Positions 1,006-18,677 of a stretch of DNA of 25,501 nt are shown piece by piece (within the stretch, counting starts at the first letter, position 1; each line of letters begins with the position of its first letter). Location of the stretch: positions 19,262 to 44,762 of the IMG/VR virus record IMGVR_UViG_3300030104_003429. One strand, given 5' to 3'. Both the position numbers and the translations under genes were made by a program. Source of the DNA: a virus. The notes below the pieces were generated by a model. The model did no database searches. It had not been told where the DNA came from and was given only the letters and a program-made list of their open reading frames with translations.

Positions 1006-1668
1006 TCAAATAAAAGTAACTTCAGTAAATCTTGTAGTGGTCTTAAAAAAATTATCTGTTATTGTTTGACCGTGAAACCACTGACCAGGAAAAACAACTC
1101 CTTGATTAAATCTATCCAATATGCATAACTCTTCAGTGAACTGCTTCTCTGTTCTCCAAGGAGTACAGTGCTCAGTATCTTTCTTCATTAAATATGCCTT
1201 TGCTTTTGTATTAGCAGCTCTATACAAAGTAGTACCTGCCTTCATATGATGAGATGGATTCATATAAATCATGAAATTTAATTGCCCATCCATATGAGGA
1301 TGCCAATAGTTACCAGCACCAGGATAATCTGATATCAATCTAAAGGTATTAATAGTATTTGGAATAGCATATGGGTCTATGTCTTTAACACCATAAGCAT
1401 CAGCAAGCATTTCAATAAGAAACTTTCTATTCTGATCCCATCTATTATCAACGGCCAACTGACCATCCATAAAATCTATACCATTCTTAGACCCTCTGAT
1501 AGATTTATGAGTTCTGATTGCTCTAATAGAATCCAAATATGAATAGACTCTATCTGGATGCTTGTACACATCATCAATAAACATGATCTTAGAATCCCTC
1601 CAAGGCTCAACATTGATTGCCCAGTTAGGATTAAATTCAAAATCAGATGCCTTAAAAAATTTAGTCAC
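1006..1668 (-). CDS. 2OG-Fe(II) oxygenase-like protein (DUF6445-type), GTG start
   Basis: 220 residues. The double-stranded beta-helix signature is visible: HxD iron ligands at H125/D127 (WHPHMDGQLNFMIYMN), a distal His at H199 (FPGQWFHGQTI) and a 2-oxoglutarate-binding Arg candidate at R213 (TTRFTEVTF). An N-terminal segment (VYKHPDRVYSYLDSI) resembles the one in the gene at 20509-21366, also DUF6445-like. The start codon is GTG (1668-1666) sharing GTGA with the stop of the preceding gene, so translation is probably coupled. Such enzymes couple 2-oxoglutarate decarboxylation and O2 to hydroxylation; the substrate cannot be predicted. Last of five adjacent oxygenase-like genes. Confidence 0.78.
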   Translation of the reverse strand: MTKFFKASDFEFNPNWAINVEPWRDSKIMFIDDVYKHPDRVYSYLDSIRAIRTHKSIRGSKNGIDFMDGQLAVDNRWDQNRKFLIEMLADAYGVKDIDPYAIPNTINTFRLISDYPGAGNYWHPHMDGQLNFMIYMNPSHHMKAGTTLYRAANTKAKAYLMKKDTEHCTPWRTEKQFTEELCILDRFNQGVVFPGQWFHGQTITDNFFKTTTRFTEVTFI

Positions 1669-2264
1669 TCGAACATAAATGTGTAGTTCACTCTACGATT
1701 GTCTGATCCATCGATCATAGAAACTTTATTAGTCTCATGAAAATATTTAGAGTTAAAAATCAAAAGTCTATTACATGCATAGGGTATGACAGTCTTCTTA
1801 GATTTAGTGTACTCTAAGTATTTTCTTATCATTATTATATCATTATTATACTCTTCCCAACTCCAACTAGGTGGTGGTTGTATATCATAAAGAATTAATC
1901 CATTCTTCTCTGAATCTTGAACAGATTCATTAGGACTAACCCAAAGATTGATATTATATTTTGCTGGATCTGCATGAGGTGTAACTCCATCAGCATTATT
2001 ATCATGCACAAATGCCCAACCTCTAGAAAATTTTCCTAAAAATTTATACCTTGATTTTAATGAGGTAACTATGTCTTCTAATAAAGTAAGTGGGAAAGAA
2101 TCTTTTGAAAAATTTATAGAATGATATCCTTCATAAGAATCATCCTTGAGATCTGTAGTCAATGCAAAGTCTCTTAATTCATTTATTACCTCAGGCAAAA
2201 ATAAATTATCTTCTATAAAATAACGATCTTCCTTAATAATCTTTTCTACAGTACTTGAATGCAT
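1665..2264 (-). CDS. 2OG-Fe(II) oxygenase-like protein (199 aa)
   Basis: 199 residues. Iron ligands are predicted at H97/D99 (VTPHADPAKYNINLWVSP) and H176 (FNSKYFHETN), with R190/R191 (DNRRVNYTFMF) as the 2-oxoglutarate carboxylate contact. The intact HxD...H...R set supports catalytic competence. The ATG at 2264 lies inside the end of the upstream oxygenase gene (32-nt overlap, no clear Shine-Dalgarno), so the true start could be slightly further in. Substrate unknown. It is sequence-distinct from its four oxygenase neighbours, not a recent tandem copy. Confidence 0.78.
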   Translation of the reverse strand: MHSSTVEKIIKEDRYFIEDNLFLPEVINELRDFALTTDLKDDSYEGYHSINFSKDSFPLTLLEDIVTSLKSRYKFLGKFSRGWAFVHDNNADGVTPHADPAKYNINLWVSPNESVQDSEKNGLILYDIQPPPSWSWEEYNNDIIMIRKYLEYTKSKKTVIPYACNRLLIFNSKYFHETNKVSMIDGSDNRRVNYTFMFE

Positions 2265-2847
2265 AAGTAAAACGATGATCAGATTTAAGAGGGGTTGCTC
2301 TATGCCAAACCCATGCAGTAAATTTTAGTAGGGTATTTGGTACTGGTGGTATAGCAATAATTTTATCCTCAAGATAAAACTCAGTTGCTCCACCATCATT
2401 CAAACCAGTATACAGTTCGTTACCATAGAATATAAAAGTTATAGCATCGTAACCATCTGCACAGTCTTGATGAAAATTTGCTATCTCTCTAGGAGCAAAG
2501 CAATTAATATATGCTCTATACAAATCATACTCTTCCATCTCTGGAAACTTAGAACATATGTTTTCATCAAACATATCAAGTATCTGCTGATCCTTATCAC
2601 TTATTGCTATGTTTCTTTCGGCCTCAGGTACGATCTCTCCATTATCTAACTCACCAACCCCGATCATTTCATCCATGATGTCATAGATCATTCCTGTTGG
2701 TTTGTAATTTCCAGCATCGCTTTCACCCCATATGTATGGTGATTTTTTAGCAAAGTCTACAGCATAAGAAAAATCTTGTGCTGGTAAAAATTTAGGAACT
2801 GTTGCAATGGATGGTCTAAGATCCGTAGTATAACTATAATCTATCAT
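2233..2847 (-). CDS. 2OG-Fe(II) oxygenase-like protein (204 aa)
   Basis: 204 residues. Signature residues are H126/D128 (ANFHQDCADGYDAITFIFY), H182 (AWVWHRATPL) and R192 (DHRFTYAFKY). The middle segment (GGATEFYLEDKIIAIPPVPNTLLKF) has the sheet-turn-sheet look of the prolyl-hydroxylase-like fold, where the loop before the distal His records the cofactor site. ATGA overlap at 2844-2847 couples it to the preceding oxygenase. Member of the five-gene oxygenase run; substrate not predictable, though phage versions have been suspected of protein or nucleic acid modification. Confidence 0.8.
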   Translation of the reverse strand: MIDYSYTTDLRPSIATVPKFLPAQDFSYAVDFAKKSPYIWGESDAGNYKPTGMIYDIMDEMIGVGELDNGEIVPEAERNIAISDKDQQILDMFDENICSKFPEMEEYDLYRAYINCFAPREIANFHQDCADGYDAITFIFYGNELYTGLNDGGATEFYLEDKIIAIPPVPNTLLKFTAWVWHRATPLKSDHRFTYAFKYCRKDY

Positions 2848-3413
2848 AAATCAATGGTGTTAACTGCTGTTACTCTCCATACTATACTGTATCTATACAC
2901 ATATGGATGCCTTGGTCCTAAACCTCTATGCCAGTAATTAGATGGAAAAATAATAACTCTACCAGGCACATACTCATGCTCTTCTATAACACTACCATGC
3001 TGTGCATCAAGTATTTGAAACTGACCACCCCACTCTTTATCCCATCTAGAATTTGAGAAGTACATAATAGTTGAATTACTAAGATCACCATCAATATGAG
3101 CACTACCATCACAAAAAGAATGCTGTAAATTTAGATCTATCCTTGACAAATAATATGTTGTGTCTGTTACCTCTTCAATATGCCTCAACATATCAAGAAA
3201 CATAGGTGCTTTAGGTGTCCAGTTAGTAACTGTATTCACACTAGTTCTTTCAAATAAATTCTCACCAAATAATCTATGAGTGCCACCTCCACCATCAGGA
3301 TATCGTCTGCCATTTGCCTCATTAGTACATGAAACAGGTAGATTAAATACCATCTCATCTGTATTTGCTATAAATGCAGGAGAAAATAAGTTGTCATAAA
3401 CTGTAGCAATCAT
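2844..3413 (-). CDS. 2OG-Fe(II) oxygenase-like protein (189 aa)
   Basis: I place the start at ATG 3413, which overlaps the upstream stop as ATGA (3413-3410); an in-frame ATG at 3425 would add four residues. In the 189-aa form the ligands are H106/D108 (GSAHIDGDLSNSTIMYF), H162 (FPSNYWHRGLGP) and R174 (YVYRYSIVWRV). This is the clearest prolyl-4-hydroxylase-like (2OG-FeII_Oxy) layout in the cluster, with the usual GGxFQIL strand between the ligands. It lies between two other oxygenase genes and is translationally coupled to both. Confidence 0.8.
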   Translation of the reverse strand: MIATVYDNLFSPAFIANTDEMVFNLPVSCTNEANGRRYPDGGGGTHRLFGENLFERTSVNTVTNWTPKAPMFLDMLRHIEEVTDTTYYLSRIDLNLQHSFCDGSAHIDGDLSNSTIMYFSNSRWDKEWGGQFQILDAQHGSVIEEHEYVPGRVIIFPSNYWHRGLGPRHPYVYRYSIVWRVTAVNTIDL

Positions 3414-4057
3414 ACTCTTACCCATAAATGTGGTGATGTAACAATGTTTTCGTAATGCTCATCAACTGTCTCAGAAGATGTGATGAATATATCATACACT
3501 ATAGATGCTCTATAATGTAACCCAGAAAAATCTCTGACATTATGCATTACACTAGATGGAAATACAATTAAATCACCATCTATAGGATTGAATTGATATA
3601 TCCCTAGGTGTGGTTTTAAATTTAATGGTAACATGTCCATTTCATTACCACTCTCAAGATTTAAAGTCCCTCCACTACCCTCAGTCCTGAGATAATAAAC
3701 TCCACTAAAATGAGATCCTTTATGATAATGATTTGGATTACCACCATCTTCTAATCTAGTTACATTCGGCCATGACTTTTGAAAGAAAACAGAATAATCC
3801 TGATCATCAGTAATCTCTTTTAAATATTTCCTAACTGCCTGACCCATATGATAATTCAACCAATAGAATCTCTTGGTAGTATGCAACAAAAAGAACTCTG
3901 GTATGTCTTGATCGCCTGTAAAATTTCCACAGTCATTAATTTCTTCTAAATTTTTATTATAAAAATTTTCACAGACATTCATCATACCATCCCATTCTTT
4001 TTTGGGACATGGAATATTAGTTTTATAAAAAGGAGTAGGAAAAAGATACTCTATCAT
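3410..4057 (-). CDS. putative 2OG-Fe(II) oxygenase, TIGR02466-like (215 aa)
   Basis: Starts at ATG 4057, which shares ATGA with the ndhI stop; a frame from an upstream TTG at 4066 is less likely. The motif [15 protein letters not shown] places ligands at H110/H112 (HxH instead of HxD), followed by [14 protein letters not shown] (H172) and [11 protein letters not shown] (R183). This matches the family described as putative 2OG-Fe(II) oxygenase TIGR02466, common in cyanophages. It is the first of five oxygenase-like genes and directly follows ndhI, so both are almost certainly on one transcript. Substrate unknown. Confidence 0.8.
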
Positions 4058-4605
4058 TTCAACCAATCTATACCGACTCTAGGATCAGAGTCCTTGACTG
4101 TGTGTGGATCCATCTCACCCTTGGGTAGATAAGAAAGTTCACGCAATGGTCTAACTGAGGGATCAGTTGTAACATTAGTGGGAAGTCGTCCAAGAGCGAC
4201 ATTATCAAAGTTAAGTTGGTGTCTGTCAAATACTGATAATTCATATTCCTCCGTCATACTCAAGCAATTAGTTGGACAATATTCTACGCAGTTGCCACAG
4301 AATATACATGCTCCAAAATCAATTGAATAGTTTCTTAGTTCTTTTTTCTTAGTTTGTTTGTTCATTACCCAGTCAACGACTGGTAAATTTATTGGGCATA
4401 CACGAACACATACTTCACAAGCAATACATTTATCAAACTCGTAATGAATGCGGCCTCTATAACGCTCAGAAGGGATAAGTTTCTCATAAGGATATTGTAT
4501 AGTTACAGGTCTACGACCCATGTGATCTAAAGTTACAGACAAACCTTGCAGCATATACTTTGCTGCTTGACCTATCTCTTTTATGTAACTAAGAATGCCT
4601 TTCAT
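4054..4605 (-). CDS. ndhI: NAD(P)H-quinone oxidoreductase subunit I (NdhI)
   Basis: 183 residues, near full length for cyanobacterial NdhI. Two 4Fe-4S binding sets are intact: C60, C63, C66, C70 ([12 protein letters not shown]) and C100, C103, C106, C110 ([12 protein letters not shown]). Hallmark NdhI stretches are present ([31 protein letters not shown]-type [12 protein letters not shown]). NdhI is the peripheral-arm subunit of the thylakoid NDH-1 complex, carrying electrons from ferredoxin toward plastoquinone in cyclic flow and respiration. Start at ATG 4605 overlaps the upstream stop as ATGA and matches family length; ATG at 4638 would add 11 atypical residues. The C-terminal about 20 residues differ from typical hosts. 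No other ndh gene is visible, so it must assemble with host subunits. Confidence 0.95.
4201..4229 (-). promoter_or_regulatory. possible internal sigma70-type promoter within ndhI
   Basis: TTGACA (4229-4224), a 17-nt spacer and GATAAT (4206-4201) occur on the minus strand inside ndhI, about 145 nt before the first oxygenase gene. Eleven of twelve consensus bases match. The bases encode conserved NdhI residues ([10 protein letters not shown]), so the match may be accidental, but it would be well placed to transcribe the oxygenase run. Confidence 0.3.
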
Positions 4606-5220
4606 TGTTGAACTTGAATTAATGGAACATACAACCATCCCTCTCTTGTATAGTTACAATGTTCTGGTACATTTGTACTGTCGTATTGATATACAGAGAT
4701 TTTATATTCAGCGTCTGGACATTCATCAATCATTGTTTTCTGAAGACGATCAAAGTATTGTCCTATAGTATTATTATCACCATTGACAGAGCAAAAGAAT
4801 GAAAATCTAGAATCTTTCTTTGCCAATTCCTTTATACATTTAATTAAAAAATATATGTTGGTGCAATTATATTTTAATAACTCATCATCAGCATCTTCAA
4901 TGTAAGGATCATGGAAGAAACAATCATACTTACCAAGGTTATCTATACATGGCCATGCTTGTTTAATTATTTTTACCTTAGGATAATTTTTTGCCCACTC
5001 TATCGCTTTTTCATATACATCATCATCTGGTTCAAGGATAGTATGAGATTTGATATCAAATTGTTGGATTTGTGTAGCAGAATAACCATATCCAAAACCA
5101 ATCTCCAACACATCACCACATGGTTCTAGTAAATTAATACAAGTTTCCATGTAATGTTTCTCCCACTCCATCATATACATGTGAGTATCAGAAGAACCAT
5201 AAAGAGTATCGTCTTTAAAT

Positions 5221-7617: not shown

Positions 7618-7846
7618 CGACTCTAGCATTCCAGTCTTTAAATGACGATTGAAGTTGTCCTTTATTCTCTGTATCTGGATCTTTATACCCCTTCATTCTC
7701 TTCCATTCATTGTACAAAGCACCTAGTAACCATGATTGAGATAGACTTTTAGGTCCGTTCTCAAGTAACTCTAGGTATTTTTTGTTGGTGGTGTAACCTT
7801 TGTACTCCTCTCTCCAATTAGAGTCGTCATAGGATTTATTTTTCAT
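7613..7846 (-). CDS. conserved hypothetical protein (77 aa)
   Basis: 77 residues, Tyr/Trp/Lys-rich (WREEYKGYTTNKKYLELLENGPKSLSQSWLLGALYNEWKRMKGYKDPDTENKG). Its ATG at 7846 overlaps the end of the preceding basic protein by 11 nt, so it probably belongs to the same late unit started at 8347-8340. I do not recognise a domain. A short helix-turn-helix-free helical bundle is plausible. Its stop codon TAA forms part of the next late promoter. Confidence 0.65.
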   Translation of the reverse strand: MKNKSYDDSNWREEYKGYTTNKKYLELLENGPKSLSQSWLLGALYNEWKRMKGYKDPDTENKGQLQSSFKDWNARVE

Positions 7847-8315
7847 AAGTAAATGTTTTTCCTTTGATTTGTGTTACTCCCTCAGGTGACTTACCTTGGG
7901 GTTTAAATTTGCCTATACCCTTTCTCTTCGTCTTACCTAATCCTCCTTTTCTAGTTGCACTTAGTGTAGCATTCTTTTTGGTTTGTACAATAACTGCATC
8001 CTGATCATACTTTTTACCTAACTTCTTTATTGCCTTCTTGAATTTTCTCTTACCTTTCTTGCCAGATGAAACTACATGACTTCGTTCACTGCCTCCTTCC
8101 CATTTACCTTTCGTTTTCGTAGGACCAGGAAGACCACGACCACGAATATCTTTATCTAATTGTTTATTTCGTGCTTTGTTTTCTTTAGAAGATTTACCAG
8201 TACGAGTTCCAGAGAGGACAGCCATCCCTCCTTTGTCAGATTTACTTTTAATTCGGCTTAGACTACTCTCCCTCACTAGAGAACATTCTAGCATAAAATT
8301 TGTAAAAGTCTTCAT
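7836..8315 (-). CDS. strongly basic late protein with capsid-targeting-like N-terminus (159 aa)
   Basis: 159 residues, extremely Lys/Arg/Gly-rich (RIKSKSDKGGMAVLSGTR, GKRKFKKAIKKLGKKYDQDAVIVQTKK, GGLGKTKRKGIGKFKPQGKSPEGVTQIKGKTFTY), so probably nucleic-acid binding. The N-terminus MKTFTNFMLECS resembles the T4 capsid-targeting peptide MKTYQEFIAEA found on internal head proteins. A late promoter (8347-8340) lies 24 nt upstream and AGGA sits just before the ATG. Together these suggest a DNA-binding protein packed in the head, an inference. From memory the sequence is conserved among T4-like cyanophages. Confidence 0.75.
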   Translation of the reverse strand: MKTFTNFMLECSLVRESSLSRIKSKSDKGGMAVLSGTRTGKSSKENKARNKQLDKDIRGRGLPGPTKTKGKWEGGSERSHVVSSGKKGKRKFKKAIKKLGKKYDQDAVIVQTKKNATLSATRKGGLGKTKRKGIGKFKPQGKSPEGVTQIKGKTFTYEK

Positions 8316-14606: not shown

Positions 14607-15707
14607 TCAGTCATATTTTTTCTTACCACCAACCAGTCTACCCGATCCTTTTTTATCATAGAATTTAATACCATGCTTCTTCATATCTGAATACTGTGCG
14701 TCTTTAGTTTTTTTGTCTGTTTGTTTCTTTTTCACCCTATCCCTTGCTTGTTGTGCTGAACTAATAAAATCTCTATAACTGGTTAGTTCTTTTAATGCTA
14801 GTTTGTATCCTGCCTTGCTAACACCCCTAACTCTCTTTGCTGTCTTCTCATATCCTTTGTCTGCCTCCTTTCTTTTTCCTGCCATTCCTTTAATACTAGC
14901 ATCACTTGATCTTTTTGCAATATCTTTAGAACCTTTATCGATGTAACTTGCTAATGTATACTTACTTAGTTCATCGATGTAGTCTTCTTTATGGTATGTT
15001 GTCATTGCTTTTGCTTTCTGTTTGACTTTATCACGAATTGATGTAGCAACCATTTTTGCAACTGCTCGCTTTCCAAAAGGATTACTACTCCTTCCAAGAG
15101 GAACCTTTGTATCAGTCTTCATTGCAATCTCATTAACATACTCTTCTTTATTGTTGATATATGCTTTGTATGTAGGAGATTTTTTCTCTACTTTTTCACC
15201 TGATCTTCTCTTTGCTTTGTTACCAGCACCTCTATCAGAGTCTTTCCAGTCTCCAGAAACTTTTTTTCCTCTCAAATCTGTGTATGATTTATAACCTTTA
15301 CCACCCAACCTTTCATCTAAGTGTTGTTCACCAACATACTTTTGAATTTGAAGAGCATTCTTTCTCTTCTTTTCATCTCCTATCTCTTCTTTATTATAGT
15401 TCTTCCACGCAGTAGCATATGCTATTGACTTTTCATCTTTTGATAGTTTGCCATCTTTTTTATAAGATTTTTTAATATGTTTCACCATTCTCTCATGTTT
15501 TGCAGTAGGTGGTGCTTCCTCTTTCACATCTTTTTTGTGAGCACTGTCCTTCATCAAGTCACCATTTGGCATAACATGGTAACCTTTTGGTATTGGTTTG
15601 CACTTATGATCTGTTTTACAAAAGTATTCACCCTTCTTACAATTTTTTGCACTACCGTCATTGTGTTCCCATAGTGCTTCTTGTCGCCAGTTGGATAATT
15701 TTTTCAT
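14607..15707 (-). CDS. lysine-rich conserved cyanophage protein, probable virion/internal component (366 aa)
   Basis: 366 residues, about a fifth lysine. Blocks I recognise from T4-like cyanophages are KHIKKSYKKDGKLSKDEKSIAYATAWK (about 74-100), GDWKDSDRGAGNKAKRRSGEKVEKKSPTY, and a helical repeat-like area LSKYTLASYIDKGSKDIAKRSSDA..AGKRKEADKGYEKTAKRVRG. The N-terminus has a Cys group (CKKGEYFCKTDHKCKPIPKGYHVM) that could bind metal. The gene overlaps the upstream 125-aa frame by 4 nt (ATGA). Likely a late protein, perhaps packaged with DNA, but without enzymatic signatures; the virion role is inferred. Confidence 0.65.
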   Translation of the reverse strand: MKKLSNWRQEALWEHNDGSAKNCKKGEYFCKTDHKCKPIPKGYHVMPNGDLMKDSAHKKDVKEEAPPTAKHERMVKHIKKSYKKDGKLSKDEKSIAYATAWKNYNKEEIGDEKKRKNALQIQKYVGEQHLDERLGGKGYKSYTDLRGKKVSGDWKDSDRGAGNKAKRRSGEKVEKKSPTYKAYINNKEEYVNEIAMKTDTKVPLGRSSNPFGKRAVAKMVATSIRDKVKQKAKAMTTYHKEDYIDELSKYTLASYIDKGSKDIAKRSSDASIKGMAGKRKEADKGYEKTAKRVRGVSKAGYKLALKELTSYRDFISSAQQARDRVKKKQTDKKTKDAQYSDMKKHGIKFYDKKGSGRLVGGKKKYD

Positions 15708-16081
15708 TTTTTATTCCTCATGATAGCACCTTTACCATGTTTCTTTTCAATATCTTTCTTCACAATATCAAGTGCAGTAGCACCTTTACCATACTTTTTC
15801 TCTGCTTCTTTTTGGTAAACAGTCTTACCTTTAGGTCGTTTACTAGGTGTGTAAGATCTTTCTCTTGTTTCTTTTGACCTATGATCTATACCTCTTTCAG
15901 CCATACGATCTTTATAATGATCATATCCTTCTTCTGGAATGTATTCTTCTCTCTTATATGCTGGAACCTTTGCTCCCTTTACACCTCTTCTTGCTTTGTG
16001 TTCTTCTCTACGCTTCTCAATAGTCTTTCCTCTTTTACCACTGGGATCAAACATGCCAGGATCATCATGACCAGGACCCAT
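15704..16081 (-). CDS. basic late protein, likely C-terminal half of a frame-split gene
   Basis: From ATG 16081 the frame gives 125 residues (RGKTIEKRREEHKARRGVKGAKVPAYK..., ending GKGAIMRNKK). The same frame is open back to 16168 and encodes protein-like sequence without a start (NLGEAKVDKGRSDYGKASIRNYRR) directly after an A11 run. As I remember it, this stretch is conserved in cyanophage homologues, where it continues a longer lysine-rich protein. Removing one A would fuse it to the 232-aa frame ending at 16143. So this is either half of a gene broken by an indel or sequencing error, or the product of frameshifting. An independent start at 16081 has only a weak upstream purine tract. Confidence 0.6.
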   Translation of the reverse strand: MGPGHDDPGMFDPSGKRGKTIEKRREEHKARRGVKGAKVPAYKREEYIPEEGYDHYKDRMAERGIDHRSKETRERSYTPSKRPKGKTVYQKEAEKKYGKGATALDIVKKDIEKKHGKGAIMRNKK

Positions 16082-16142
16082 TCTTCTATAATTTCTTATA
16101 GATGCTTTACCATAGTCAGATCTACCTTTATCTACTTTTGCT

Positions 16143-16841
16143 TCACCTAGATTTTTTTTTTTCGTACATTAACCATGTACTTTCGGTTAATGCTGCTTTG
16201 GGATTATACGATTCCATGCCTTGTTTTCGCATGAATTCTTTAAATGCTGGAGAGTTAATCCCTCTTTTCGGATCTCGCATCCTTGCTGCCTTGGATCTCT
16301 CTCTATATGGTTTATCAGATTCGTCTGGATCTTTTTGTGACTCAGGATTTCTCATTGCACGGTAGTTTTCCTGTGCTAACTGTGCAATTCCTTCTTCCAT
16401 TTCTGCAGCATATTCTTCTTCTTTCATATGATCTGCTGCTTTATATAAAGGTTTACCTGTCAGTTTACTCTTCATACCTTTCTTATAATTCTGGTATGCT
16501 GGTGTATTACCTTTCTTGTCAGCATTAGTAACAGTCATTTGCTCAGTTGTTAACTGTGCAATTTCTTCCTCAAGAGTTGGATTAATTGTAATTGTATTCT
16601 TTACGCTCTTCTCTTTAATAGTTGTTTCTTTTTCGTCAGAAGTTGTAGCGTCACCAGACTTGTACATCTTAGTTGCTTCTTTTCTCTCTTGAAGATCATG
16701 AGCAATCTTCTCAGCAACCTCTCTGCGTAATTTTTCAACAGCAGTTTCCTCTACAATCGGTTCATCGATTGTGGATTCAGTAAAGACACTCTGAATAGTA
16801 TTCAGTATTAATGCCTTAGCAGTTTCGTCAATGTTACTCAT
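16143..16841 (-). CDS. conserved late protein, likely N-terminal half of a frame-split gene (232 aa)
   Basis: 232 residues. The N-terminus is helical (MSNIDETAKALILNTIQSVFTESTIDE, VEKLRREVAEKIAHDLQERKEATKMYK). The middle is acidic/Thr-rich and the last third has blocks known from cyanophage proteins (GNTPAYQNYKKGMK, AMRNPESQKDPDESDKPYRERSKAARMRDPKRGINSPAFKEFMRKQGM). It ends just after an 11-A run with YEKKKSR, while the +1 frame continues the conserved sequence. A TATAAATA late promoter (16880-16873) lies 31 nt upstream. A virion or head-internal role is inferred from promoter type and family memory. Confidence 0.65.
   Translation of the reverse strand: MSNIDETAKALILNTIQSVFTESTIDEPIVEETAVEKLRREVAEKIAHDLQERKEATKMYKSGDATTSDEKETTIKEKSVKNTITINPTLEEEIAQLTTEQMTVTNADKKGNTPAYQNYKKGMKSKLTGKPLYKAADHMKEEEYAAEMEEGIAQLAQENYRAMRNPESQKDPDESDKPYRERSKAARMRDPKRGINSPAFKEFMRKQGMESYNPKAALTESTWLMYEKKKSR
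16152..16162 (-). other. A11 homopolymer at a frame break
   Basis: Eleven consecutive A residues on the minus strand (T on the plus) end the 232-aa frame four codons later and lie at the entry to the next open frame. With ten A the two frames become one continuous protein across GEAKVDKGRSDYGKA. It is the site of an indel error, a mutation, or slippage. Confidence 0.8.
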
Positions 16842-16852
16842 CGAAGCTTTCT

Positions 16853-18064
16853 CTACGCTTTCTTCTTAGAGTTATTTATAAACGACCTAACCTTCTCTAA
16901 TGGAGTTAGTTGTTGTACATAGGCACGATACGACTCAGTACCCACTTCTCTTTGACTTGCTGGAACACCAGATACAGGTCTTTTTGTTACATACTCACTC
17001 AAATCTTTTATCCAAGATTTAAACATCATTCCTTCGTTAGTCACTGCTATGACATAGTTTGCACCTCTGCGAACTATTCTACCAATTAAGCCATGGTTTA
17101 AATTTTCTACCAAAGTTCCTATGTCAAATAGTTTTTTGTTGAGGTATATCTCTCTCAGTGTATTTCCTGCAAGTTTAGGAGCAATCTGCCACATTTCTAC
17201 ACCTTCAGTCTTGGCAGCAGCACCCATAGATTTTTGTACCGTATTAAATAATTCTCTTGCTACTATACCTTTAGCAGCTTTAGGTAAACCTTTCTTAAAT
17301 GCCTCAAAATCTCCATCTGCTGCTAAGGCTCGTAGTTTGGAAGCAGACATGCCCTCGACACCTTCAGCATCGGGATCCCTTTCCCCTGCGGAAATAACAT
17401 TAATCGCATCAAAATTATAGAGTTGCCCGTTGTATTTGTTTGCGATCCCCTCAAACTCTTTCTGTCTGTCAGCACCAACAACGATATTAATGCTGGAGTA
17501 CCCTTGTGTATCGGCTTGTGATAACGCATCAAATATAGTCCTAACTGAAGGATCATATACAATATTATTGGTATGATCTGGGAATAATTTTTTCATAAAA
17601 AGAACCTTTTCCTCTGTATCGAGTGGATTCTTTTGTGGATCTACTGAGTGTGATGGATATATTGTGTACTCTCCTTCTTGTGCTGTGTCTGCAATCTTGC
17701 TAAGAAGTTTTTCATGACCTGCAGTAGGTGGATTAAATCTTCCAAAACCAATAGTTAATGTACCACGAGTCTTCTCTACTGGTTCTTGTTCTTCTGGTTC
17801 TTCCTCTGATTGTGCTTGTGGCACAGCAGGTGGAGCTTGATCGGGCACAACACCACGAGCAGCCATACCTGGTCTAGTAGGATCAGTTTCTTGTGCTGGT
17901 TTGCGACCACTATTAAAAACTAATTCACCATCAATGGTACGACCTACAATTCTTCCATTAGGATCTAACCAAGCACCATGACCATCGCCTTTCAAACCAA
18001 GCTTTGATGCTTGCTTTGCTGCGTTAGTCTGAGCTTCAGTTATGAATTGGGCAAAATTCTTCAT
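16853..18064 (-). CDS. cytidylyltransferase-like nucleotidyltransferase-domain protein with capsid-targeting-like N-terminus
   Basis: 403 residues from ATG 18064, one base after the upstream stop; a TTG at 18100 is rejected. The N-terminus MKNFAQFITEAQ resembles the T4 capsid-targeting peptide MKTYQEFIAEA. After a Pro/Glu-rich linker comes an HxGH-class nucleotidyltransferase domain (about 100-280): IGFGRFNPPTAGHEKLL (variant TAGH), IVVGADRQKEF and ISAGERDPDAEGVEGMSASKLR, the ISxTxxR-type motif. The C-terminal 120 residues (NLNHGLIGRIVRRGANYVIAV) form a separate domain. This fold transfers a nucleotidyl group (NMN, pantetheine-phosphate or CTP substrates). It may be packed in the head; the substrate is unknown. 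Confidence 0.75.
   Translation of the reverse strand: MKNFAQFITEAQTNAAKQASKLGLKGDGHGAWLDPNGRIVGRTIDGELVFNSGRKPAQETDPTRPGMAARGVVPDQAPPAVPQAQSEEEPEEQEPVEKTRGTLTIGFGRFNPPTAGHEKLLSKIADTAQEGEYTIYPSHSVDPQKNPLDTEEKVLFMKKLFPDHTNNIVYDPSVRTIFDALSQADTQGYSSINIVVGADRQKEFEGIANKYNGQLYNFDAINVISAGERDPDAEGVEGMSASKLRALAADGDFEAFKKGLPKAAKGIVARELFNTVQKSMGAAAKTEGVEMWQIAPKLAGNTLREIYLNKKLFDIGTLVENLNHGLIGRIVRRGANYVIAVTNEGMMFKSWIKDLSEYVTKRPVSGVPASQREVGTESYRAYVQQLTPLEKVRSFINNSKKKA
16873..16880 (-). promoter_or_regulatory. T4-type late promoter TATAAATA (perfect), inside preceding gene
   Basis: Minus-strand TATAAATA (16880-16873) lies in the last codons of the nucleotidyltransferase gene, 31 nt upstream of the ATG at 16841. 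Confidence 0.65.
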
Positions 18065-18065
18065 G

Positions 18066-18677
18066 CTATTGAGCAAACACTCTTCTAGTATCCTCTGCAA
18101 TCTTATTTATATTGAATGATATAGTCATACGAAGATCTTTAGTATTATTTTTTTTAACACAGTGTTTTAAATGCGAAGGAAAAATTATCAAGTCCCCCTC
18201 TGCAACATCAAATTGTGTGCTTTCTTTTAAGTGAGAATTTTTTTCTTGATCCATGAAACTATCATCAAACATAAAAGAATATACATCCATCTGAGGATTG
18301 AAAAATACTGTAGAACTATGAACCTCAGGATCATAACAAACATAATGTACTGCAGAGAAAAATCCTGGCAAATGAGAATGTGGTTCTTGGAAATGAGATT
18401 CTTCATAGGCATTCAACCAAATATCATCGATATATGGTCTATGTTTTAACCCAATGTCCTCCCTAAATTGTCGTAAAACAATATTATAATGTTCTTTTAA
18501 ATGTTTAGGGAAGGCACCATCGTATTCAGTTCTTACATTACAGTTCCATCCAGTAGGAGTTTCATTAACAGAATGATTTTTGTATGAATTATACCTATCA
18601 AGCATGTATGCTTTTAGGTCTGTAACATCTAGATTATATTTGTAAATTCTAGTCGGAAAGATATCATGATAAAACAT
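18066..18677 (-). CDS. putative 2OG-Fe(II) oxygenase, TIGR02466-like (203 aa)
   Basis: 203 residues. Layout matches the gene at 3410-4057: N-terminal IFPTRIYKYNL, then HFQEPHSHLPGFFSAVHYV with ligands H100/H102 (HxH rather than HxD), GDLIIFPSHLKHCV (H172) and LRMTISFNI (R183). This is a cyanophage family with predicted 2OG-Fe(II) dependence and no assigned substrate. It sits between the 366-aa unknown and the late nucleotidyltransferase gene; the late promoter of that gene is embedded in its last codons. Confidence 0.78.
   Translation of the reverse strand: MFYHDIFPTRIYKYNLDVTDLKAYMLDRYNSYKNHSVNETPTGWNCNVRTEYDGAFPKHLKEHYNIVLRQFREDIGLKHRPYIDDIWLNAYEESHFQEPHSHLPGFFSAVHYVCYDPEVHSSTVFFNPQMDVYSFMFDDSFMDQEKNSHLKESTQFDVAEGDLIIFPSHLKHCVKKNNTKDLRMTISFNINKIAEDTRRVFAQ
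18104..18111 (-). promoter_or_regulatory. T4-type late promoter TATAAATA (perfect), inside preceding gene
   Basis: Minus-strand TATAAATA (18111-18104) sits in the 3' end of the oxygenase gene (encoding FNINK), 39 nt upstream of the nucleotidyltransferase ATG at 18064. It would let the late gene escape the early unit. Confidence 0.65.

Follow-up and report, generated by a model that had tools for sequence, protein, structure and literature searches.

A conserved A11 run at the frame junction of a modular marine phage gene as a probable slip site

The window analysed here (25,501 nucleotides of a 44.8-kb virus record) carries a gene whose two parts lie in different reading frames and meet at a run of 11 A residues (minus strand, 16152..16162). 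The break in frame is conserved among related contigs and the sequences on both sides of it are under coding selection. The run is probably a functional slip site from which both a short and a long protein would be made, with transcriptional slippage as the most likely mechanism. We infer that slippage occurs, that it is mainly transcriptional in nature and that the ratio of short to long protein is selected.

The closest named records by DNA are the Prochlorococcus phages P-TIM68 and P-SSM7 and single-cell marine viruses, and the gene order around the split gene resembles that annotated in the T4-like cyanophage P-SSM7. The local order is a cytidylyltransferase, Lys-rich module genes, a primase-like ORF and nrdA/nrdB-like ORFs (these last judged by eye). 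The gene upstream of the split gene (16853..18064, minus strand) is cytidylyltransferase-like (T4-GC190 type), with an N terminus (MKNFAQFITEAQ) that resembles a T4 capsid-targeting sequence. This ORF was called from a TTG (16853-18100, minus strand); its true start is probably the ATG at 18064, from which MKNFAQFITEAQ is read. The gene that follows the split gene (14607..15707, minus strand) encodes 366 aa with more Lys-rich modules (MKKLSNWRQEA...). Elsewhere in the window, a 159-aa protein (7836-8315, minus strand) has a Pfam S-AdoMet_lyase match and begins MKTFTNFMLEC like a T4 capsid-targeting head; it is possibly an injected SAM lyase. Five genes in series (1006-4066, minus strand) give the impression, from their ORF translations, of being 2OG-Fe(II)-oxygenase-like, and a ferredoxin-like protein with two CxxCxxCxxxCP motifs (4054-4638, minus strand) resembles NdhI by eye.

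The N part of the split gene is a frame of 232 aa (16143..16841, minus strand; PHROG 24078, unknown function) made up of module A, which starts MTVTNADKKGNTPAYQNYKKG..., and module B, AQENYRAMRNP...GINSPAFKEFMRKQGM. It ends ...ESYNPKAALTESTWLMYEKKKSR-stop, the last residues being E-K-K-K-S-R. At the junction (16143-16168, minus strand) the sequence is TGTACG-A11-TCTAGGTGA. The run lies at a module boundary, and the unshifted frame is closed by a TGA (16143..16145, minus strand) two codons past it. No other run of nine or more identical bases occurs in the 25.5-kb window. The C part lies in the +1 frame (15704..16168 from stop to stop, minus strand; PHROG 26015 and 1418, unknown function). From 16168 this frame reads KKKNLGEAKVDKGRSDYGKASIRNYRR..., and the C part runs from NLGEAKVDKGRSDYGKASIRNYRR... 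to ...GAIMRNKK. It has 149 codons after the lysines, and its first ATG, GTG or TTG occurs only at residue 25, which leaves 24 codons without a start. The re-read sequence bears out the first-pass annotation as to the coordinates and peptide of the 232-aa frame ended by A11, and as to a second frame open from 16168 with no start codon (none before residue 25). It had also proposed that one A fewer would join the two frames; the +1 relation is confirmed and two A more would serve equally, but the fused length that it gave as 385 residues is about 378 when recomputed. The C frame closes with a TGA that shares bases with the ATG opening the next gene (ATGA, 15704..15707, minus strand). Because this stop/start overlap is kept in 6/6 relatives, shifted ribosomes may feed the next gene too.

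Relatives were sought with each half of the gene and with two DNA patterns, in searches that are independent of frame. Both halves were found together in five other marine IMG/VR contigs (L002, L003, L004, L005 and L006), and in all six, the window included, they stand in a +1 relation at a single long A run. The run is A11 in the window and L006 and A12 in L002, L003, L004 and L005. The two versions (A11-TCTA and A12-TTA) have equal total length, so they differ by substitution with no indel and the frame relation is unchanged. All six have a near-invariant N frame ahead of the run (ESY[ND]PKAALTESTWLMYEKKK), and past the run the +1 frame opens [NK]L[GA]EAKVDKGRSDYGKASIRNYRR in 6/6. Aligning homologues across the junction, the check that had been proposed for the split-gene reading, thus finds the +1 break kept throughout, at A11 or A12. 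Selection is purifying on both sides of the run (15 pairs each; dN/dS of 0.11-0.49 for the N part and 0.12-0.54 for the C part). Of the 10 sites that vary in the first 24 codons past the run, 8 are third positions (P = 0.003). The three all-AAA codons alone would be a weak signal, since outside the run 13 of the 39 lysine columns that never vary also use AAA in every one of the six contigs. A C-frame ATG stands immediately before the run in L006, where the other five have ACG; an ATG at residue 25 is present in the window and four others and absent in L006.

The last module of the N part was surveyed in other lineages by DNA pattern (GINSPAFK; 99 stretches), which together with other loci gave 85 distinct contexts. 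Counts of contigs exclude re-fetched duplicates (for example L002/L036/L093/L101, and L182, which is L103). A stop follows directly after the module in 70 of the 85 contexts, and two are in-frame fusions (L120 with no run, L207 with an in-frame A9). In the remaining 13 rows the frame changes at an A run; these rows come from 12 contigs, six of which form the window's lineage. In the other six (L103, L104, L125, L148, L167 and L171) the N part ends ...ASYEPTLPM[LV]ESKKKL-stop at an A9, and in 6/6 an unlike C part (TLTIEEEDKIYLVKANEPEQAYEV...) goes on in the -1 frame, where the first 33 codons contain no start. A search with this C part added L214 and L215 (A10, -1) and L216 (A12, -1), whose N parts end otherwise than those six; L214 and L215 come from different samples and are identical at the junction. 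The C frame lacks a start for at least 25 codons in the A9, A10 and A12 groups, and C-part dN/dS is 0.13-0.47, with dS up to 1.75 and one near-identical pair at 0 (eight contigs, L215 being left out as having the same junction as L214). The opposite shift and a different C partner are therefore found at the same gene position in nine further contigs, so that the break survives the swapping of flanking sequence, with a direction that depends on the group. Homologues whose halves are always separate genes, named beforehand as evidence against a split gene, are not what the window's lineage contains; elsewhere this arrangement does occur, both in the 70 contexts that stop after the module and in at least three loci (L040, L028 and L031) where the C module is carried by a downstream gene.

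Runs of at least nine A residues were also scanned in 267 sequences, which were chosen for related modules (with a few chance matches) and are not a random sample. The 35 distinct contexts found comprise 16 frame transitions, 15 runs inside one ORF and four others; L171, near a contig end, and L215, with the same context as L214, are outside the 16 transitions. An A run thus needs no frame break, as 15 of the 35 contexts are in frame inside one ORF. Besides the A11 of the window, a junction run of A9 to A12 is present in 17 further contigs. Sibling genes contribute transitions in L218 and L260 (A11, +1, 'NLAHTAPLSDRV') and in L219 (A11, -1). The L218 type of joint is in frame in L217, L222, L244 and L245 (A10-A11), where one continuous frame covers the joined protein. 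This module joint is in frame at L222 1766 (A10) and out of frame at L218 1864 and L260 985 (A11); the flanks of L222 and L218 are closely similar. A junction type of such mixed frame could be explained by drift or phase variation too. When the same 35 runs are taken as T on the sense strand, they give no frame transition (0/35). Among named T4-like cyanophages and single-cell viruses, about 389 kb of sequence (one 7-kb overlap counted) contains no A or T run of nine or more, and no cultured example was found around the same locus in seven isolate or metagenome-derived and six single-cell stretches, which are not whole genomes. The junction peptide of a further sibling gene, used as a query, had no match in named phages. 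Among the pattern matches, L090 (an integrase-like ORF by eye) and L094/L095 (no module found) were taken as chance, and L096-L098 fall in bacterial genomes. The gene beginning MLSFK... is whole with an A8 in P-SSM4 (L083) and P-RSM3, and is frame-broken at an A7 in P-SSM3 (L084 3659-3770), which carries two annotated genes there; the P-SSM3 break may be an error, a mutation or another slip site.

A tracts of at least nine residues make bacterial RNA polymerase slip, producing mRNAs with extra or missing A's (available text of PMC1088944 and PMC5009743), and slippage is seemingly suppressed in some AT-rich genomes (Baranov et al., available text of PMC1088944). The model proposed for the window begins with a faithful copy of A11, on which ribosomes would stop two codons past the run and release the short form of 232 residues. 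RNA polymerase that lost one A or gained two would place the message in the +1 frame, and the resulting protein of about 378 residues would contain two more modules. A ribosome slipping on the poly-A could enter the +1 frame as well, by what we consider a less likely route. Ribosomes making the long form would terminate at the C-frame TGA, with which the next gene's start codon overlaps. In the A9, A10 and A12 groups, one A more or two fewer would yield the long form. Polymerase slippage is favoured over classical ribosomal frameshifting because both directions occur and there is no consistent RNA stimulator; as the polymerase both adds and removes bases, opposite shifts at homologous joints suit it. 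This one mechanism would cover both directions, the lack of a constant stimulator and a run that is free to change by substitution.

The main alternative, above all for the -1 groups, is slipping of ribosomes on poly-A. Programmed frameshifting or poly-A sliding would here act at A_AAA_AAA-type heptamers for the -1 shift (A9, A10 and A12) and produce a +1 or -2 shift at A11 and A12. In the A9 group a perfect A_AAA_AAA site is present, with C as the next base, and sliding on iterated AAA codons has been reported in E. coli (available text of PMC4363877). However, classical sites shift one way, whereas the homologous joints described here use both +1 and -1. A -1 shift at a slippery heptamer would serve only the A9, A10 and A12 groups, as the window's lineage needs +1 or -2. 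The downstream RNA is also inconsistent: that of L216 folds well (z -2.78) and that of L219 folds better than most shuffles (z -1.75), but 8 of the 10 sequences are unremarkable, folding no better than shuffles, and none of 38 pairs is compensatory (0/38). Upstream of the run, no conserved Shine-Dalgarno-like element was apparent by eye. On this evidence ribosomal slipping is regarded as unlikely, if still a serious candidate. Phase variation at the DNA level, with replication slippage toggling the long form among virions, is improbable. Runs of A9 to A12 are hypermutable in principle, and the sibling joint has relatives in frame at A10 and out of frame at A11; against this, the joined state occurs in 0/6 and 0/6 contigs of the two main lineages despite frame-independent searches, A11 became A12 by substitution, and near-identical viruses from different samples share run length (L125/L171 and L214/L215).

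Independent translation of the C part, in which termination at the TGA would be coupled to initiation at an internal or non-standard start, is very improbable. It would be possible in L006 from the ATG before the run, and the window and four others could use the ATG at residue 25. Yet the 24 residues ahead of the latter are themselves under coding constraint, L006 lacks it, the others lack the ATG near the run, and the A9, A10 and A12 groups have no start for at least 25 codons. Ordinary overlaps in the same loci do provide a start: at A7-A8, each of the 19 transitions resembles a normal overlap of two genes and offers an ATG no more than 33 bases from where the run begins, whereas 15 of the 16 transitions at nine or more A residues have none within that distance. 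That the gene is decaying, or that the break is a sequencing or assembly error, is scarcely credible. The contigs come from metagenomes and long homopolymers are prone to error, but the break is found in 6/6 and 9/9 contigs of separate assemblies, in the nine with the opposite shift, and the run is conserved by substitution. Purifying selection past the run (the C-part dN/dS above) likewise speaks against an inactivating indel. Error, inactivation and slippage giving both forms were the three options of the first-pass annotation, and the conserved break and the selection past the run make slippage the best supported of them.

Neither half of the protein matches a Pfam family above cut-off, and the AlphaFold models are of low confidence (mean pLDDT 58 for the N part and 55 for the C part), with short helices. 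Many other proteins also contain the C module, there joined in frame and with no long A run. At 33 of 40 distinct starts of the module it is preceded by hydrophobic-x-E-A, with L, I, V, M or F at P3 before E-A. These starts resemble T4 gp21 prohead protease sites. The upstream cytidylyltransferase begins MKNFAQFITEA, which resembles a T4 capsid-targeting sequence and fits the pattern MK-x-[FY]-x-x-F-x-x-E; the N terminus of the split gene itself (MSNIDETAK) does not fit this pattern. More than 40 distinct heads of the form MK-x-F/L-x-x-F/W-x-x-E occur among the loci examined. Given the hydrophobic-x-E-A sites and the capsid-targeting-like N terminus of the neighbour, we think that these proteins may be built from shuffled modules of proteins that lie inside the capsid and are cleaved during maturation. 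The products of the split gene would then be capsid-internal proteins of a T4-like marine phage, with modules split by prohead-protease-like sites. A T4-GC190 homologue is present in virions of cyanophage S-SM1 (available text of PMC3037559), evidence that covers the neighbouring gene only.

More speculatively, poly-A runs might act as frame-agnostic joints. Modules of injected or capsid-internal polyproteins would recombine at A-rich linkers, and slippage at A9 to A12 would express a new module in any frame; +1, -1 and in-frame joints do occur at the same kind of boundary, and run length might tune the ratio of short to extended protein. If the slippage model is correct, ocean phages make two forms of modular virion-type proteins by A-tract slippage. 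Genes that look 'split' or 'frameshifted' in contigs of marine viruses would then in some cases be whole, with a second half that gene callers miss. The joints found here (+1, -1 and in-frame, A9 to A12) offer a natural set for relating the direction and efficiency of slippage to run length.

Slippage on A runs is already known in bacteria, and a suggested phage case exists in CPt10; in the available text of the open-access literature, no report of slippage or frameshifting was found for phage or cyanophage genes of the present kind. Judged from sequence, the gene appears to have the attributes of a programmed transcriptional slippage gene, namely a run of at least nine at a two-frame junction, an organisation conserved without indels and downstream coding selection. 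It resembles the bacterial slippage genes (Thermus dnaX at A9, IS elements of Deinococcus and Roseiflexus, and Shigella mxiE, spa13 and spa33; available text of PMC1088944 and PMC5009743) in having an A or T run of nine or more at the joint of overlapping frames, a run kept by substitution and not by indel, and short and extended products, here predicted. In the Deinococcus IS elements the run changes by substitution (available text of PMC1088944), the same signature as A11-TCTA to A12-TTA. Unlike these polymerase, transposase and secretion genes, the present gene encodes a phage modular, probably capsid-internal protein, and the direction of shift varies between lineages. The methyltransferase of Campylobacter phage CPt10 is likewise a phage gene broken at a poly-A tract, for which its authors suggested slippage, but it is a single gene, not virion-type, and conservation is not shown in the available part of that account (PMC2853527). 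The lambda G/GT tail assembly chaperone and other phage recoding also give a short and a C-terminally extended form from one gene (available text of PMC5009743). Lambda G/GT is, however, a ribosomal system with a single direction in a tail gene, whereas the gene described here has a long A run and lies among head and DNA-metabolism genes, not beside a tape measure gene. T4 internal proteins and capsid-targeting sequences, the role of the latter being described in the available text of PMC9026906, have parallels in neighbour genes that begin MK-x-F-x-x-F-[IL]-x-E-A and in modules that follow hydrophobic-x-E-A. The split gene differs from them in lacking such an N terminus and in having modules that are shuffled and repeated between genes.
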